Assembly: GCA_030750975.1 (NCBI GenBank)
Contig: JASMHC010000009.1
Span: forward strand, 124,001 to 188,000
Source: Paracoccaceae bacterium
Lineage (GTDB): Bacteria; Pseudomonadota; Alphaproteobacteria; Rhodobacterales; Rhodobacteraceae
DNA: 64,000 nt
Reading direction: 5' to 3'
This document shows positions 2,560 through 56,719 of the stretch, piece by piece (the stretch's first letter is position 1; every line of letters begins with the position of its first letter). The notes under the pieces are model-generated. The model ran no database searches, was not told the DNA's origin, and worked only from the letters and a program-made list of their open reading frames with translations. Position numbers and translations under genes: made by a program.

Positions 2560-3551
2560 AGTTCGGAGCGGTTCCGGTAGAACAGGCGCTGGGGGCGATC
2601 CTTGCCCATTCGGTGCAGTTGACGGGCGGGCGTCTGCGCAAGGGGGCGGTTGTGTCAAAATCGGACCAGTCCGCGCTGATGAACGACGGCGTGACCGAAA
2701 TCGTCGTCGCCCGACTTGAGGCGGATGATCTGGCTGAGAATGACGCGGCAGAGCGGCTGGCCTCGGCCATTGCCGATCCCGGAAAGAAGGGTCTGAGCGC
2801 CACCAATGCCTTTACCGGCCGTGTCAACCTGCGGGCCGAGATTGCCGGGGTGGTGCGGGTGGATGCCGACAGTATCCGGGCGTTCAATTCGGTCAATCCG
2901 ATGATCACCATCGCGACCGTGCCCGATTACCATTTGGCCGATGCGCGCACGATGCTGGCCACGATCAAGATCATCTCGTTCGGGGTTCCCTCAAAGGATG
3001 TCGAAGCCGCGCGGCTGCATCTGGCCGAGGCGATCCGGATACGGCAACCGGTCGTGAGAAACGCAAGTTTGATCGTGACCGAAATCCCCGGCGTGGCATC
3101 CGCCAAAGGGATCGAGGCGATCAAACAGCGGCTTGTGCGTTGGGGTGTTGCGCTGGATCACGTCGTGTTCTGTGCGCACCGGCAGGATGCGTTGGAAGAG
3201 GCATTGGCGGGCGTCTCGTCCGAGCTTGTGTTGATTCTGACCGGTTCGGCCACGTCGGATATCGCCGATGTGGCCCCGGCTTCGGTGGTGGGTGCGGGGG
3301 GGCGGATCGAGCGTTTTGGCATGCCGGTCGATCCCGGCAATCTGCTGTTCCTGGGGGTGATCAACGACGCGCCGGTGATCGGATTGCCCGGATGTGCCCG
3401 CTCACCGGCGCTGAACGGGACCGATTGGGTGCTGGCCCGCGTCGCCTGCGGGGTCGGGGTGTCGGCCAGCGATATCTCGGATATGGGGGTTGGCGGGCTG
3501 CTGAAGGAAATCCCGACACGGCCCCAGCCCCGGTCACGTCACGGCAAATGA
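2556..3551 (+). CDS. Molybdopterin-binding (MoCF_biosynth/MoeA-like domain) protein
   Basis: A 331-residue protein overlapping the XdhC-like gene by ATGA, so translation is probably coupled. The C-terminal half (about 170-310) resembles the MogA/MoeA molybdopterin-binding fold: LILTGSATSDIADVAPASVV, then RFGMPVDPGNLLFLG and VIGLPGCARSPALNG. The N-terminal half is less clear and resembles proteins found beside XdhC in Rhodobacterales. A role in molybdenum cofactor handling with its neighbour is inferred; it lacks the full domain set of MoeA, so it is not called moeA. Confidence 0.82.
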   Translation: MKFGAVPVEQALGAILAHSVQLTGGRLRKGAVVSKSDQSALMNDGVTEIVVARLEADDLAENDAAERLASAIADPGKKGLSATNAFTGRVNLRAEIAGVVRVDADSIRAFNSVNPMITIATVPDYHLADARTMLATIKIISFGVPSKDVEAARLHLAEAIRIRQPVVRNASLIVTEIPGVASAKGIEAIKQRLVRWGVALDHVVFCAHRQDALEEALAGVSSELVLILTGSATSDIADVAPASVVGAGGRIERFGMPVDPGNLLFLGVINDAPVIGLPGCARSPALNGTDWVLARVACGVGVSASDISDMGVGGLLKEIPTRPQPRSRHGK

Positions 3552-4418: not shown

Positions 4419-5102
4419 TTAGGGCTGAGGCCTGTCATGGCCTTTGCTGCGTCGCAGGGCTTTCAGCAATTTCGGTATGTCAGCGGGGCCAAAAACCGAT
4501 CCGTCGGGCGTATCGGAAAGGGCGGTGTCGACCATCACCCAGGCCAGATCATCGGCGGTGGTGCCAATAAACGGCAGCAGGCGGAACGCAAGCTTGCCCA
4601 TGGTGTCGCCAAACCCTTTGTGGTTTTCGGGCCGGGTCGGGACGATCAGACCCGGGCGAAAGGCGATTTTCACCGGAAAACCGCTGGCAAACAGGGCGTT
4701 TTCAGCGCGGCCTTTGGTGTTCAGCGCCTTGTACCAGCTTTTGCCATTGGGTGCCGCGCCGGATGCCGAGAAATGGCAAACCCGGGCGTTCGGGCTGGCC
4801 TTGGCCAGGGCTGCCAATGTTGTTTCAAGATAGGTGACGGTTATGGTCTCATAGGTTGCGGCATCGACCTTGTGGGCATAGGTCGCGATGCAGTGAAACA
4901 GGATGTCCGCCCCCTGCATCGCGGCTTCCAGACCTTCGGATGTGCCAAAGTCGGCAGTTTGAATTTCGGTCAGTTTGGCATGGCTCAGACCGGTGGAGCG
5001 GCGCGAGATTGATGTGACTTTGGTGATGCGGTTGTCGGACAGAAGCGCCCGAAGCACCGAGCCTCCGACCATTCCGGTGCCGCCGGTTAGAACTGCGTGC
5101 AT
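4419..5102 (-). CDS. NAD(P)-binding Rossmann-fold protein (NmrA/SDR-like)
   Basis: A 227-residue atypical short-chain dehydrogenase-like protein. It starts MHAVLTGGTGMVGGSVLRALL, with the GxxGxxG dinucleotide motif at residues 7-13, and keeps LFHCIATYA and VCHFSASGAAPNGKSWY. It resembles NAD(P)H-binding 'HTATIP2/YbjT-like' reductases; substrate is unknown. The ATG at 5102 is preceded by GGGGAA at about 6 nt. An upstream in-frame start at 5162 would add 20 residues not matching the family. A 44-bp palindromic repeat lies about 100 bp upstream. Confidence 0.8.
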   Translation of the reverse strand: MHAVLTGGTGMVGGSVLRALLSDNRITKVTSISRRSTGLSHAKLTEIQTADFGTSEGLEAAMQGADILFHCIATYAHKVDAATYETITVTYLETTLAALAKASPNARVCHFSASGAAPNGKSWYKALNTKGRAENALFASGFPVKIAFRPGLIVPTRPENHKGFGDTMGKLAFRLLPFIGTTADDLAWVMVDTALSDTPDGSVFGPADIPKLLKALRRSKGHDRPQP

Positions 5103-5202
5103 GAGGTTCCCCGTTTGCGCGTTTGCGTCAAGCGAAAGCGTTTCGACAAATTGTTGTTGCACAACAATGTGGCAAAACGCGCGATACTTAAAGGCGTTGC
5201 GG

Positions 5203-20391: not shown

Positions 20392-20416
20392 GATGGGTGC
20401 GGAGCACCCATCCTAC
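20392..20416 (+). repeat. REP-like palindrome after lon
   Basis: GATGGGTGC and GCACCCATC (20392-20400 and 20404-20412) flank a 3-bp loop and are followed by CTAC. It shares the GGTGC core and CTAC tail with the elements next to the RAYT gene, but the stem is a variant. Confidence 0.55.
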
Positions 20417-20720: not shown

Positions 20721-20744
20721 GATGGGGCAGCCCTCCATCCTACG
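20721..20744 (+). repeat. REP-like palindrome before the histidine phosphatase gene
   Basis: GATGG and CCATC arms enclose GGCAGCCCT and are followed by CTAC. It is an imperfect relative of the palindrome after lon (20392-20416). Confidence 0.4.
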
Positions 20745-21329: not shown

Positions 21330-21350
21330 TGGGTTGAAAACCCACCCTAC
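21330..21350 (+). repeat. REP-like palindrome after the histidine phosphatase gene
   Basis: TGGGTT and AACCCA around a GAA loop, followed by CCCTAC. It is a short variant sharing the CCTAC tail of the window's REP-like family. Confidence 0.4.
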
Positions 21351-26551: not shown

Positions 26552-27568
26552 ATGATCCACAAGAATTGGGCAGAACTTATCAAGCCAACCCAACTGGACG
26601 TTAAGCCGGGCCACGACCCGTCGCGTCAGGCAACAATCGTAGCAGAGCCTCTTGAGCGCGGCTTTGGTCTGACCATGGGCAACGCGCTGCGCCGCGTTCT
26701 GATGTCGTCGCTTCAGGGCGCCGCGATCACCAGCGTTCAGATCGACAACGTCCTGCACGAGTTTTCGAGCGTTGACGGTGTGCGCGAAGATGTCACCGAC
26801 ATCATCCTGAACCTCAAGGGTGTTGCGGTTCGCATGGAAGTCGAAGGACCAAAGCGCGTTTCGATCTCGGCCAAAGGCCCGGGCATCGTCACCGCAGGTG
26901 ACATCGCGGAATCGGCAGGGATCGAAATCCTGAACCGTGACCACGTGATCTGCCATCTGGACGATGGGGCAGACCTTTACATGGAACTGACCGTCAACAC
27001 CGGCAAAGGCTATGTTGCCGCCGACAAGAACCGCCCCGAAGATGCGCCGATCGGTCTGATCCCGATTGATGCGATCTATTCGCCGGTCAAAAAGGTGTCC
27101 TATGACGTGCAACCAACCCGTGAAGGGCAGGTTCTGGATTATGACAAGCTGACCATGAAGGTTGAAACCGACGGTTCGGTCACGCCGGATGATGCGGTTG
27201 CTTTCGCGGCGCGTATCCTTCAGGACCAGCTTTCGATCTTCGTCAACTTCGACGAACCGGAAGCCGCTGGCCGTCAGGACGAGGACGATGGTCTGGAATT
27301 CAACCCGCTGCTTCTGAAGAAAGTGGACGAGCTGGAATTGTCTGTTCGTTCGGCCAACTGCCTGAAGAACGACAACATCGTTTACATTGGCGATCTGATC
27401 CAGAAAACCGAAGCCGAGATGCTGCGCACTCCGAACTTCGGCCGCAAGTCGTTGAACGAAATCAAGGAAGTGCTGTCGGGCATGGGTCTGCACCTTGGTA
27501 TGGATGTCGAGGATTGGCCGCCGGACAACATCGAAGATCTGGCGAAGAAATTCGAAGACCAGTTTTAG
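26552..27568 (+). CDS. rpoA: DNA-directed RNA polymerase subunit alpha
   Basis: A 338-residue alpha subunit. The N-terminal assembly domain ([20 protein letters not shown]) and the C-terminal domain with helix-hairpin-helix ([20 protein letters not shown]) are intact. The ATG at 26552 follows GGAGG at 5 nt. Its TAG stop overlaps a REP-like inverted pair that fills the spacer before rplQ. Confidence 0.98.
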
Positions 27569-27621
27569 GTGCGTGTGAACACGCACCCTACCACGCCGTA
27601 GGGTGCGTGATTTCACGCACC
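27568..27621. repeat. Inverted pair of REP-like palindromes between rpoA and rplQ
   Basis: Palindrome 1: GGTGCGTGT (27568-27576) with ACACGCACC (27579-27587), then CTAC. Palindrome 2, inverted: GTAG, then GGTGCGTGA (27602-27610) with TCACGCACC (27613-27621). The first overlaps the last base of the rpoA stop codon. The layout is a BIME-like pair, the same core as around the RAYT gene at 55.7-56.1 kb. Confidence 0.8.
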
Positions 27622-52939: not shown

Positions 52940-53180
52940 GACCCGTTTCCTCGTTTGTATGACACGATACTGCCCGCAGGACTCGGTCATGGCAACCTCC
53001 CGTGGCACGACGCGCGAAATCACGCTTTTGCCGGTTAAGACTGCAATTTCCCCAAAGCCCAAATCGCGCGGCTAGCAGCCCCGGGGCCGCCCCGCCCCCA
53101 TGGGGTGGCGAACGCGGGTACCCCATGAAACCACCCAACCCCGCTTGACCAATCCGCATTTCCCGCGCATACGGCGCTGC

Positions 53181-54980
53181 ATGACCGATCTATCCAAAAT
53201 CCGCAATTTCTCTATCGTTGCCCATATCGACCACGGCAAGTCGACCCTTGCCGACCGGCTTATCCAGATGACCGGCACCGTGGCCGAGCGGGACATGAAA
53301 CAACAGCTTCTCGACAGCATGGATATCGAACGCGAACGTGGCATCACCATCAAGGCCAACTCGGTGCGGATCGAATACCCCGCCAAGGATGGGGAAACCT
53401 ATATCCTCAACCTTATCGACACCCCCGGTCACGTCGATTTCGCCTATGAGGTCTCGCGCTCGATGAAGGCGGTCGAAGGTTCGTTGCTGGTGGTGGACGC
53501 CACCCAGGGGGTTGAGGCCCAGACCCTCGCCAATGTCTATCAGGCCATCGACGCGGATCACGAGATTGTTCCGGTTCTGAACAAGATCGACCTGCCCGCC
53601 GCCGAACCCGAGCGCGTGGCCGAGCAGATCGAAGACGTCATCGGCATCGACGCAAGCGACGCCGTGGAAATCTCGGCCAAAACCGGCATCGGCATCCCCG
53701 ATGTGCTAGAGGCCATCGTCACCCGTCTGCCATCGCCCGAGGGCAACCGCGACGCGCCGCTCAAGGCGATGCTGGTGGACAGCTGGTACGATCCCTATCT
53801 GGGCGTCGTCGTGATGATCCGCGTCATGGATGGCGTGATCAAAAAGGGCGACCGCATCAAGATGATGCAAACCGGCGCCGTCTATCCTGTCGACCGTCTG
53901 GCCGTTCTCAAACCCGAGATGCAGAACATCGCCGAACTTGGCCCGGGCGAAATCGGCGTCCTGACCGCAAGCATCAAACAGGTCCGCGACACCCGCGTCG
54001 GCGACACCATCACCCATGACAAGAAGGGCTGCGAAACTGCGCTGCCGGGCTTCAAACCCGCCCAGCCGGTGGTTTTCTGCGGCCTTTTCCCCGTCGACTC
54101 GGCCGAATTCGAAGACTTGCGCGACGCCATCGAAAAGCTCGCCCTGAACGACGCCTCGTTCAGTTATGAAATGGAAACCTCAGCCGCACTTGGCTTTGGC
54201 TTCCGCTGCGGCTTCCTCGGGCTTCTCCACCTTGAGGTGATCCGCGACCGGCTTGAGCGTGAATATGGCATCGAACTGATCACCACCGCACCGTCGGTAA
54301 TCTACCATATCTATATGAAAGACGGCTCGATGTTCGAGCTGCACAACCCCGCCGACATGCCCGACCTCAGCAAGGTCGACCACCTTGAAGAACCGCGCAT
54401 CAAGGCCACCATCATGGTGCCCGATGAATATCTGGGCGACGTGCTGAAACTGTGCCAGGACCGACGCGGTATCCAGCTTGACCTGACCTATGCCGGCACC
54501 CGCGCAATGGTTGTTTATGACCTCCCCTTGAATGAAGTTGTGTTCGATTTCTACGATAGGCTCAAAAGTGTTACCAAAGGGTATGCGTCGTTTGATTATC
54601 AGATGATCGGCTATTCCGAGGACCAACTGGTGAAAATGTCGATCCTTGTGAATGACGAACCGGTGGATGCGCTTTCGACCATGGTCCACCGCGCCCGCGC
54701 CGAAATGCGCGGCCGCGCGATGGTTGAAAAACTCAAAACCCTGATCCCCCGCCACATGTTCAAAATCCCGATCCAGGCTGCGATCGGTGGCAAGGTCATC
54801 GCCCGCGAAACCCTATCGGCCATGCGCAAAGACGTGACGGCCAAATGCTACGGCGGCGACGCCACCCGCAAACGCAAACTGCTGGACAAGCAGAAAGCGG
54901 GCAAGAAAAAGATGCGCCAGTTCGGGAAAGTGGATATCCCGCAGGAAGCGTTTATCTCTGCGTTGAAGATGGATGATTAA
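53181..54980 (+). CDS. lepA: Elongation factor 4 (back-translocating GTPase)
   Basis: A 599-residue translational GTPase. G1 is [13 protein letters not shown], the G3 motif DTPGHVDF, G4 [15 protein letters not shown]. The C-terminal LepA-specific domain ends with [20 protein letters not shown]. The ATG at 53181 gives the exact family N-terminus [20 protein letters not shown]; an in-frame ATG at 53100 would add 27 residues. It is divergent from the membrane protein gene. Confidence 0.98.
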
Positions 54981-54992
54981 AGCCCCGTAGTT

Positions 54993-55020
54993 GGTTGGTG
55001 CGTGCTCGCACGCACCAACC
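54993..55020. repeat. REP-like palindrome after lepA (perfect 13-bp stem)
   Basis: GGTTGGTGCGTGC (54993-55005) pairs perfectly with GCACGCACCAACC (55008-55020) around a TC loop; GTAG precedes it at 54987-54990. It shares the GGTGCGTG core with the rpoA/rplQ pair and the elements at the RAYT gene. Confidence 0.8.
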
Positions 55021-55038
55021 AACCATCCCCCCACTATC

Positions 55039-55062
55039 GGTGCGTGAAATCACGTACCCTAC
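55039..55062 (+). repeat. REP-like palindrome before the DUF4160 gene
   Basis: GGTGCGTGA with TCACGTACC around AA, then CTAC. It forms the other half of an inverted pair with the palindrome at 54993-55020, and matches the copies at 27598-27621 and 56172-56195. Confidence 0.8.
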
Positions 55063-55119
55063 ACCGCTGGCATTTGAGTGTTAACACTCACCTAACCTGA
55101 CCCATCTACCCTCGGCCTC

Positions 55120-55362
55120 ATGCCGACGGTCTTCACCCAAAACGGGTTCCGCTTTTTCTTCTATTCAAATGAGGGCTATCCCCGCGAGCCCATCCATATT
55201 CATGTCCGCAAGGGCGGGGCGGAAGCCAAAATCTGGCTCTACCCGAAACCTTCCATCGCTCGAAATTCAGGCTTTGATGGAAAAACCCTGCGTTTCCTGC
55301 TAAACCTTACCCAAGAGAAATCCGATGAGATCACCTATGTCTGGCACTCCTATTTCGGCTAA
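55120..55362 (+). CDS. DUF4160 protein (putative toxin-antitoxin component)
   Basis: An 80-residue protein with the DUF4160 pattern NGFRFFFYSNEGYPREPIHI and HVRKGGAEAKIWLYP. DUF4160 and DUF2442 genes form a conserved pair suggested to be a toxin-antitoxin module. It overlaps the DUF2442 gene by 38 bp in another frame. It sits between two REP-like pairs near a RAYT gene. Confidence 0.85.
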   Translation: MPTVFTQNGFRFFFYSNEGYPREPIHIHVRKGGAEAKIWLYPKPSIARNSGFDGKTLRFLLNLTQEKSDEITYVWHSYFG

Positions 55363-55594
55363 GGCCGTCCGCTTCGACGACACCCGCATGTGGGTCACGC
55401 TCTCTGACGGGCGCGAAATCGGCGTGCCGCTGTCATGGTTTCCACGCTTGCAGGTCGCCAGTCCGCAAGCCCGCAAACAGGTTGAAATCAGCCCCTTCGG
55501 TCTTCACTGGCCCGATCTTGACGAAGACATCTCCATCGAAGGTCTTCTTGCAGGTCGCGGAGACCAAAGCAGCTTTGGTGGTGAAGCCGCGTAG
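55325..55594 (+). CDS. DUF2442 protein (partner of DUF4160)
   Basis: An 89-residue protein with the DUF2442 core KAVRFDDTRMWVTLSDGREI, GVPLSWFPRLQVASPQ and HWPDLDEDISIEGLLAG. It overlaps DUF4160 by 38 bp, so expression is tightly coupled. The true start may be a downstream codon (for example MSGTPISAKA), which would shorten the overlap. The TAG stop lies inside a REP-like palindrome. Confidence 0.85.
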   Translation: MRSPMSGTPISAKAVRFDDTRMWVTLSDGREIGVPLSWFPRLQVASPQARKQVEISPFGLHWPDLDEDISIEGLLAGRGDQSSFGGEAA

Positions 55595-55612
55595 GGCGGG
55601 GTTCACCCCGCC
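55591..55612. repeat. REP-like palindrome over the DUF2442 stop codon
   Basis: GTAG followed by GGCGGGGT and ACCCCGCC arms (loop TC). The TAG at 55592-55594 is the DUF2442 stop codon. The stem is a G-rich variant of the family; the GTAG/CTAC end is shared. Confidence 0.6.
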
Positions 55613-55633
55613 TTATATCGCGATGGCAAATAT

Positions 55634-55655
55634 GGCGGGGTAAACCCGGCCCTAC
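55634..55655. repeat. REP-like palindrome overlapping the RAYT 3' end
   Basis: GGCGGGGT and ACCCGGCC arms then CTAC, the inverted partner of 55591-55612. Its last bases overlap the stop codon of the RAYT gene at 55652. Confidence 0.65.
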
Positions 55656-56143
55656 ATCCCCAAATCCATACCTGCCTCAAACCTTGCATCCCAATGCACC
55701 GACGAATGCGGCCAATCCTCTGGTCGCACCGCCAATCCGTGTTTCACCGGGTTCATCCAACAGTATCGCAAATGCGCCGCGAAATCGGCCTCGTCGCGGA
55801 TGTGATGCTCCCAAAACCGGCGCTGCCAAATCCCGCGCTCATGGCGGGCAATGTGGCTCGGGCGTAGTTGCCCTTTCGGAAGCTCGCGTGAGGATCTCGA
55901 TTTGATCAACCGCCATCTCGTTCCAAATTCACGGTCGCCCTCAGGCATTTGCCAAATGCAGTGTATGTGATCGGGTAAAACAACCCATGCTTCAATCCCG
56001 AAGGGGCGTTCGGTTCGGGTGGTTTTCACGGCGTGCCGCAGTAAGTCAACATGACGCACAAGTAAATCGCCTTGGCGATCCGCGATAGCAACCGTGAAGA
56101 ATATCAATGCGCCGGAGGTTTTGGGGCGACGATAGTTTGGCAT
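55652..56143 (-). CDS. REP-associated tyrosine transposase (RAYT, Y1/HUH family)
   Basis: A 163-residue single-domain Y1-type transposase related to IS200/IS605 TnpA. The HUH motif is H59-I-H61 in VVLPDHIHCIWQMP, the conserved GIWQRRFWEHHIRDE covers 104-118, and the catalytic tyrosine is Y127 in RYCWMNPVKHGL. RAYTs move or shape short palindromic REP sequences and are not self-mobilised as ordinary insertion sequences. Here it is bracketed by REP-like pairs, as expected. All three catalytic residues are kept. Confidence 0.92.
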   Translation of the reverse strand: MPNYRRPKTSGALIFFTVAIADRQGDLLVRHVDLLRHAVKTTRTERPFGIEAWVVLPDHIHCIWQMPEGDREFGTRWRLIKSRSSRELPKGQLRPSHIARHERGIWQRRFWEHHIRDEADFAAHLRYCWMNPVKHGLAVRPEDWPHSSVHWDARFEAGMDLGM

Positions 56144-56171
56144 GTTTAGACAATGCCGGACAATGGTTAAT

Positions 56172-56195
56172 GGTGCGTGAAATCACGCAGTCTAC
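56172..56195 (+). repeat. REP-like palindrome upstream of the RAYT gene
   Basis: GGTGCGTGA and TCACGCAGT arms, then CTAC. It lies 28 bp before the RAYT start and forms an inverted pair with 56224-56247. Confidence 0.8.
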
Positions 56196-56223
56196 AACGC
56201 GGTCGTCTACAATCGATCGAACC

Positions 56224-56247
56224 GTAGGGTGCGTTCGCGCACGCACC
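56224..56247 (-). repeat. REP-like palindrome, inverted, before the rhodanese gene
   Basis: GTAG then GGTGCGTTC and CGCACGCACC arms. It is the inverted partner of 56172-56195, and close to the copy at 27598-27621. Confidence 0.8.
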
Positions 56248-56251
56248 GCCC

Positions 56252-56719
56252 CTAGGTCGATCTCTGCCCTTCTGCCACCGCCGGCGAAATCAACCCGTCC
56301 GCCTCGTCCCCGTCCAACACGGCCCCATCAGCCCCAACCAGCTCCTGATCCGCGTCGTTCCAGCCCTTCACCCCCAGCTTAACCGATCGCACGTCCGCGA
56401 ACCCGATCACCTGCATCACCTCGCAGGCCAAAGCCGACCGGTTGCCCGAGCGGCAGATAACCACCACAGGCCGATCCCGCGCCTCAACCAGCTCTGGCTC
56501 GGTCTCGGCATAGTCCCACTCGGCCGCGCTTTCCAAAATTCCGCGCGGCACATTCAGCGAACCCGCAATCCGCGCCCGCGCATATTCGTCACGTTCGCGA
56601 ATATCCAAAAGCAGCGTTGAGGGGTTGGCCGCGATAAACTCCGGCACATCCCACGGCATGATCTCGGTGATCCGCTCGGCGGCCTCGGCGGCCAGTTGGC
56701 GATAGGTTTTGCGCGGCAT
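56252..56719 (-). CDS. Rhodanese-like domain protein
   Basis: A 155-residue single-domain sulfurtransferase-like protein: LLLDIRERDEYARARIAGSL and the active-site loop VVICRSGNRSALACEVMQ, whose cysteine would carry the persulfide. There is no signal peptide. The donor and acceptor are unknown. A 44-bp palindrome (56753-56796) lies just upstream and a REP-like pair just downstream. Confidence 0.9.
   Translation of the reverse strand: MPRKTYRQLAAEAAERITEIMPWDVPEFIAANPSTLLLDIRERDEYARARIAGSLNVPRGILESAAEWDYAETEPELVEARDRPVVVICRSGNRSALACEVMQVIGFADVRSVKLGVKGWNDADQELVGADGAVLDGDEADGLISPAVAEGQRST

Follow-up and report, generated by a model that had tools for sequence, protein, structure and literature searches.

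A RAYT locus of a Paracoccaceae bacterium in which the transposase stop codon lies inside the adjoining REP hairpin

The association of RAYT (TnpAREP) transposases with REP palindromes has been described repeatedly. As far as the accessible parts of the pertinent papers go, GTAG-bearing REP ends often supply a TAG stop to flanking open reading frames and REPs also occur inside genes (PMC3733652), REPs lie close to or directly downstream of rayt stop codons and their number mostly tracks the presence of a RAYT (PMC2817692), and TnpAREP cuts single-stranded REP at CT, with the GTAG being of importance (PMC8266576). The same portions of text describe in-frame REPs inside the tnpAREP genes of TnpAY1 subclass 2.4, generally between the HuH and the Y, an arrangement that this subclass often shows and that is said to occur in no other (PMC6006769), and the stalling of ribosomes in E. 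coli by REPs no more than 15 nt away from a stop codon (as cited in PMC12306157). In this partial view of the literature, REP-stop overlaps, REPs just past rayt stops and REPs within tnpAREP genes are all already in print; a search of the open-licence literature found no title on RAYTs of Rhodobacterales. The locus described here is a RAYT of known kind, REPtron loci being already well known, and its notable detail is the stop codon inside the adjoining repeat.

The window, i.e., the whole stretch of 64,000 nucleotides that was analyzed, is G000:C9:124001-188000, part of a genome (G000) of 3.19 Mb in 22 contigs. Its features are collected in Table 1. In a profile search the RAYT-A protein matched NF047646 with 186.9 bits against a cut-off of 80, and phmmer matched its residues 1-153 to 4er8 (TnpArep; E=1e-37), the sole PDB sequence match at E<=1, which makes E. 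coli TnpAREP its solved homologue by sequence. Both histidines of the HUH motif (H59 and H61) were invariant in an alignment of 10 RAYTs, and Y127 was at least 90% conserved. The Y1/HUH transposase with these three residues that the preliminary description had recognized is thus confirmed. The nearest named RAYTs, among the best 80 of 558 confirmed, belong to Marivita (74%) and Cribrihabitans (71%), which suggests that the genome is of the Rhodobacterales. Inside the RAYT-A gene no REP was found, and a defence library gave no match for the RAYT, the DUF4160/DUF2442 pair or a PhdYefM-like gene.

Table 1. Genes and REP hairpins of the window, with positions counted from its first nucleotide.
Feature	Position	Strand	Basis or remark
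lepA	53100-54980	+	
Core-A REP GTAGTTGGTTGGTGCGTGCTCGCACGCACCAACCAAC, divergent	54987-55023	+	directly after the lepA stop; palindrome and hairpin scans
Core-A REP GTAGGGTACGTGATTTCACGCACC	55039-55062	-	one stem mismatch; core-A pattern
DUF4160/DUF2442 pair	55120-55362 and 55325-55594	+	
Partner REP GTAGGGCGGGGTTCACCCCGCC	55591-55612	+	supplies the TAG stop of the convergent DUF2442 gene
3' REP of RAYT-A GTAGGGCCGGGTTTACCCCGCC	55634-55655	-	one stem mismatch; its TAG is the RAYT-A stop
RAYT-A / TnpAREP gene, 163 aa	55652-56143	-	HUH H59/H61, Y127; TAG stop inside REP head 55634-55655
Degenerate core-A REP GTAGACTGCGTGATTTCACGCACC	56172-56195	-	upstream of RAYT-A; core-A pattern
Core-A REP GTAGGGTGCGTTCGCGCACGCACC	56224-56247	+	upstream of RAYT-A; core-A pattern
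Rhodanese gene	56252-56719	-	
Dispersed core-A REP	27568-27591	-	core-A pattern
Dispersed core-A REP	27598-27621	+	inverted partner of 27568-27591; core-A pattern
Core-B REP GTAGGATGGGTGCTCCGCACCCATC	20392-20416	-	exact; type flanking the second RAYT, not RAYT-A

Inverted GTAG-headed REPs are present on both sides of RAYT-A and form the pairs 54987-55023/55039-55062, 55591-55612/55634-55655 and 56172-56195/56224-56247. The core-A search pattern (GGTGCGTG-4-CACGCACC, at most 3 mismatches) matched the window 6 times against 0.59 expected, a number reached in 0 of 100 shuffles, while a core-free scan for GTAG hairpins returned 8 against a shuffled mean of 0.65 and a maximum of 3 (40 shuffles). 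Four of the six hairpins near RAYT-A were detected by the strict scan; 55634-55655 and 55039-55062 were missed because of a stem mismatch, and the former was recovered by pattern searches. All three inverted pairs reported in the preliminary description are therefore present, and the recurrence of the core that it noted at 27568-27621 also holds, both palindromes there being core-A REPs. The palindromes at 55591-55655, which it had listed together with the other pairs, have a different core (GGCGGGG). Its supposed variants fared unevenly: 20392-20416 is an exact REP of another family, core B, and the strict scan passed over the imperfect palindromes at 20721-20744 and 21330-21350.

Core A (GTAGGGTGCGTG) brackets the RAYT-A locus. 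A count of the palindrome over the whole genome, which had been proposed as a check, gave 21 GTAG-headed head matches to this core at no more than one mismatch and 0 matches to the reversed control pattern; from the match table we count 20 palindromes, distributed over 16 places. The core of the 55591-55655 pair (GTAGGGCGGGG) occurs nowhere else in the genome at no more than one mismatch, and with up to three mismatches the pair was matched at four other places, where the cores differ. Core B (GTAGGATGGGTG) has 13 head matches (reversed control, 0), and its REPs flank a second RAYT (RAYT-B, G000:C13:116822-117259) that is 53% identical to RAYT-A over the typed part. In place of the one wider REP network first suggested, the genome thus holds two RAYTs, each with its own REP core, together with a GGCGGGG pair that is unique to this locus. 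Core A is presumably the cognate REP of RAYT-A, an assignment short of certainty because the pair overlapping the 3' end of the gene is not of core A and is itself unique at no more than one mismatch.

Contigs C7, C8 and C17 of G000 hold three core-A REPs at a distance of 160-168 bases from the contig end, and one of them (L004) directly precedes a gene start that we take to be that of EF-Tu. At the RAYT-B locus (L068, G000:C13:114500-120000) the frame reads on through a REP into the C-terminal residues ...VGWVVPTH.... In a genome of the same genus (L069, G001:C83), the RAYT at about 4629-5194 is broken up into two open frames, and a REP-like palindrome holds the stop codon of the first; judged by eye, this RAYT has the same neighbouring gene as RAYT-B.

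The 3' end of RAYT-A reads ...ATG TAG, its stop codon coinciding with the last three letters of the GTAG head of 55634-55655; on the opposite strand, the partner head at 55591 gives the stop codon of DUF2442. The arrangement was counted in 80 named RAYT loci, each read in frame from the match start (80/80), a sample biased to close kin because the best 80 of 558 confirmed loci were chosen. TAG ended 41 of these RAYTs and was part of GTAG in 39, and a strict REP hairpin began there in 25. Other open frames of at least 250 codons at the same loci, which are unverified genes and of which several adjoin the RAYT's own 3' REPs, showed GTAG in 28 of 241 cases (p=3e-11 for the contrast with RAYTs) and a REP head at the stop in 10 of 241 (p=8e-10). 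Sense REP heads located between -3 and +250 of the RAYT stop were sharply fixed, with 25 of 34 at exactly -1 and at most one at any other offset; upstream sense heads were spread from -132 to -39, with at most three per offset. Among the rows of the RAYT tree discussed below, the overlap was seen with 13 different 8-base cores. A single REP unit stops both the RAYT and a convergent open frame in the window, in L139 (a double-footed palindrome), and in L165 and L202 (inverted pairs).

REPs elsewhere in G000 showed little or no excess of stop-codon overlap over non-REP GTAGs, with 11/37 versus 17/88 for frames of at least 60 codons and 4/35 versus 9/88 (p=1) for frames of at least 100 codons when the RAYT and DUF2442 REPs were set aside. 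In the 80 loci, REPs besides the one at the RAYT stop were weakly enriched at stops of frames of at least 100 codons (24/143 versus 99/956, p=0.03), the same comparison giving p=0.10 at 60 or more codons and p=0.06 at 150 or more. Since a stop codon in the GTAG foot makes the hairpin begin right at translation termination, RAYT might limit itself through ribosome stalling, and the overlap would then be re-formed as core and enzyme change together. A speculative and in our judgment rather improbable proposal makes the 3' REP integral to the working of the gene in Rhodobacterales, so that a RAYT self-limits its expression and carries its own master REP while core and enzyme co-change. The fixed position of the REP at the RAYT stop provides a handle on the origin of REPs from IS200-like right ends versus autoregulation.

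This fixed position indeed resembles the right end of an insertion sequence. Along with the Y1 kinship and weak matches of RAYT-A to PF01797 (17.9 bits) and NF033573 (15.6 bits), it would fit a mobile IS200/IS605-type element with hairpin ends, whose terminal repeats or remnants would be the REPs. However, both matches fall under the cut-offs of these models (23 and 55 bits, respectively), REPs are dispersed without the gene, those upstream of the RAYTs have no single fixed offset, and the identity of RAYT-A and RAYT-B is too low for recent copies. We consider a mobile element very unlikely, and RAYT-A is probably not mobile. A search of G000 with PF01797 returned nothing at E<=0.001.

Phylogenetic analysis of 106 RAYTs (162 columns) produced a weakly resolved tree, with 53 of 103 inner branches open; 9 of 39 loci (eight lost in parsing, and L054 in the wrong frame) and four near-duplicates were left out. 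Over the 33 rows with a stop overlap, the REP core required 14 changes for 13 classes (floor 12, several of them singletons), compared to a mean of 21.9 and a minimum of 19 in 200 shuffles, which indicates a tendency of the core to go with the RAYT lineage. The overlap itself, for which the window RAYT was scored as 'no overlap' because the strict detector misses its 3' REP, required 25 changes (shuffled mean 28.1, minimum 22). This lack of clear clustering implies that the overlap was often gained and lost, or that the tree is too weak, and led us to reject the idea of a single frozen ancestral state. REPs inside the gene are clustered on the tree, requiring 12 changes versus 26.4 in shuffles, with the 30 of 106 rows being a loose count, in which REPs read through at the C terminus (RAYT-B, for example) are included.

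In-frame REPs are found inside the RAYT genes of 15 of the 80 named loci, and in 10 of the 61 named loci that were parsed the internal REP lies between the HUH and the W-rich motif before the Tyr. In-frame internal REPs with differing cores were noted in L042, L046, L051-L054, L059-L062, L073, L076, L077 and 15 of L132-L211.

The relationship between REPs and RAYTs was surveyed in 147 genomes (G000 included). NF047646 matched in 45 of them at E<=0.001, and in 35 of these above the cut-off; counts cover three cores (A, B and GGCGGGG), and the statistics ignore kinship. Five or more core-A matches were present in 6/45 genomes with a RAYT match versus 1/102 without one (p=0.003). Core B occurred at least once in 4/45 versus 0/102 (p=0.008) and at least five times in 2/45 versus 0/102 (p=0.09). 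The corresponding figures for GGCGGGG were 17/45 versus 10/102 (p=0.0001) and 4/45 versus 3/102 (p=0.20). At least five matches to any of the three cores were found in 9/45 versus 4/102 genomes (p=0.003), in 9/35 versus 4/55 within the family (p=0.028), and in 9/35 versus 4/112 (p=0.0003) when only RAYTs over the cut-off were considered. Some palindromes match on both strands; with GGCGGGG counted once, G064 and G070 drop under five and the any-core comparison becomes 8/45 versus 3/102 (p=0.004). Core matches without a detectable RAYT were found in G004 (23; one contig), G035 (12), G068 (8) and G064 (5). A search of these four genomes with RAYT-A at E<=1 gave no match in two of them, and only weak ones in G004 and G068 (E of 0.026 and 0.17), where they fall within frames some 1000 codons long. 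The expectation that the palindrome depends on a RAYT in relatives was consequently upheld in part: core A is commoner where a RAYT is present, while four genomes without a detectable RAYT hold 5-23 matches and GGCGGGG at five or more shows no clear difference. REP populations can therefore outlive or lack a RAYT.

These four relatives also lend some weight to an alternative that takes the palindromes for transcription terminators or for host hairpins of another sort gathering between genes, the RAYT being incidental, as does the fact that several palindromes directly follow gene ends and could form RNA hairpins. Against it, the hairpins are headed by GTAG, their cores are specific to families, core B is confined to 4 of the 147 genomes, all of them RAYT-bearing, and the core fits the RAYT tree better than any of the 200 shuffles. 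We give this alternative only a slim chance.

Genes surrounding RAYT-A were examined in the other loci. A lepA gene about 0.04-1.8 kb away from the RAYT and convergent with it was present in 13 (flanks of 1.5-2 kb, in which other genes may intervene), of which 10 are among the 80 named loci (L132, L138, L140, L144, L145, L152, L155, L157, L161 and L188) and three in relatives (L038, L040 and L044); in L136, lepA is on the other side of the RAYT. On the RAYT tree this linkage required 12 changes, compared to a mean of 13.4 in shuffles, of which 59 of 500 were as low, and it was rejected as proof of vertical descent. The rhodanese gene was discarded as a synteny anchor, its relatives being only about 25-40% identical, so that no empty site could be demonstrated. 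A separate observation concerns L138 (Maritimibacter sp.), in which the lepA frame seemingly ends in the TAG of a REP head at about 3150-3156.

The DUF4160/DUF2442 pair has a core-A REP on one side and the RAYT's 3' REP pair on the other, and DUF2442 ends in GTAGGGCGGGG in G000, G021 and G059 (degenerate hairpin), as could be expected of cargo moved by the RAYT within a REP-bounded cassette. However, none of the other RAYT loci examined gave a match to DUF4160/DUF2442 (tblastn at 1e-3, flanks of 1.5-2 kb). DUF2442 relatives occur in 22 of 147 genomes, and in 5 of 19 other loci DUF2442 is near lepA, in sequence that as far as retrieved contains no RAYT; it runs in the same direction as lepA in G021, G038, G073 and G081 and in the opposite one in G051. 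On these grounds the pair is probably a neighbour of lepA in its own right and not RAYT cargo; its earlier inclusion in the REP unit is not supported, and a cassette of this kind appears most improbable.

The explanation we favor, with a probability of roughly 0.88, is a REPtron composed of a non-mobile Y1/HUH transposase and the GTAG-headed REP hairpins that it would handle. The early reading of the locus as a REPtron or BIME with GTAG as the head tetranucleotide is in this respect backed by protein family, solved homologue and genome counts. By analogy with characterized TnpAREP enzymes, RAYT-A would bind a REP folded in single-stranded DNA, such as the lagging-strand template, read its GTAG foot and hairpin, and nick a nearby CT through Tyr127. 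Rejoining of the strands would then copy or move REPs or REP pairs, amplifying them, while the rayt gene stays put. Two such units would operate in G000 with separate cores, A at this locus and B on contig 13.

As a counted alphaproteobacterial case, the locus adds a small genome whose two RAYTs each have a core of their own, a core type that tracks the RAYT tree, REP populations in genomes without a detectable RAYT, and a REP position sharply fixed at the RAYT stop codon. With E. coli TnpAREP (4er8), the Stenotrophomonas and Marinomonas REPtrons and NF047646 it has in common the family, the HUH motif and Tyr, inverted flanking GTAG REPs, dispersed REP copies and separate cores for separate RAYTs. 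Unlike these known REPtrons, the REP population of G000 is small (21 and 13 head matches), and the 3' REP of RAYT-A provides the stop codon and has a core unlike that of the other flanking REPs. Some related RAYTs resemble TnpAY1 subclass 2.4, as portrayed in the accessible part of PMC6006769, in carrying in-frame internal REPs, whereas RAYT-A has none. Finally, the accessible text of PMC3733652 and PMC2817692 describes the same overlap of REP head and stop codon and the same closeness of REPs to rayt ends. With the fixed position at the RAYT stop, our counts carry these published points further: beyond what that text contains, RAYT genes are counted here, and a spike is found at one offset with 13 different cores.
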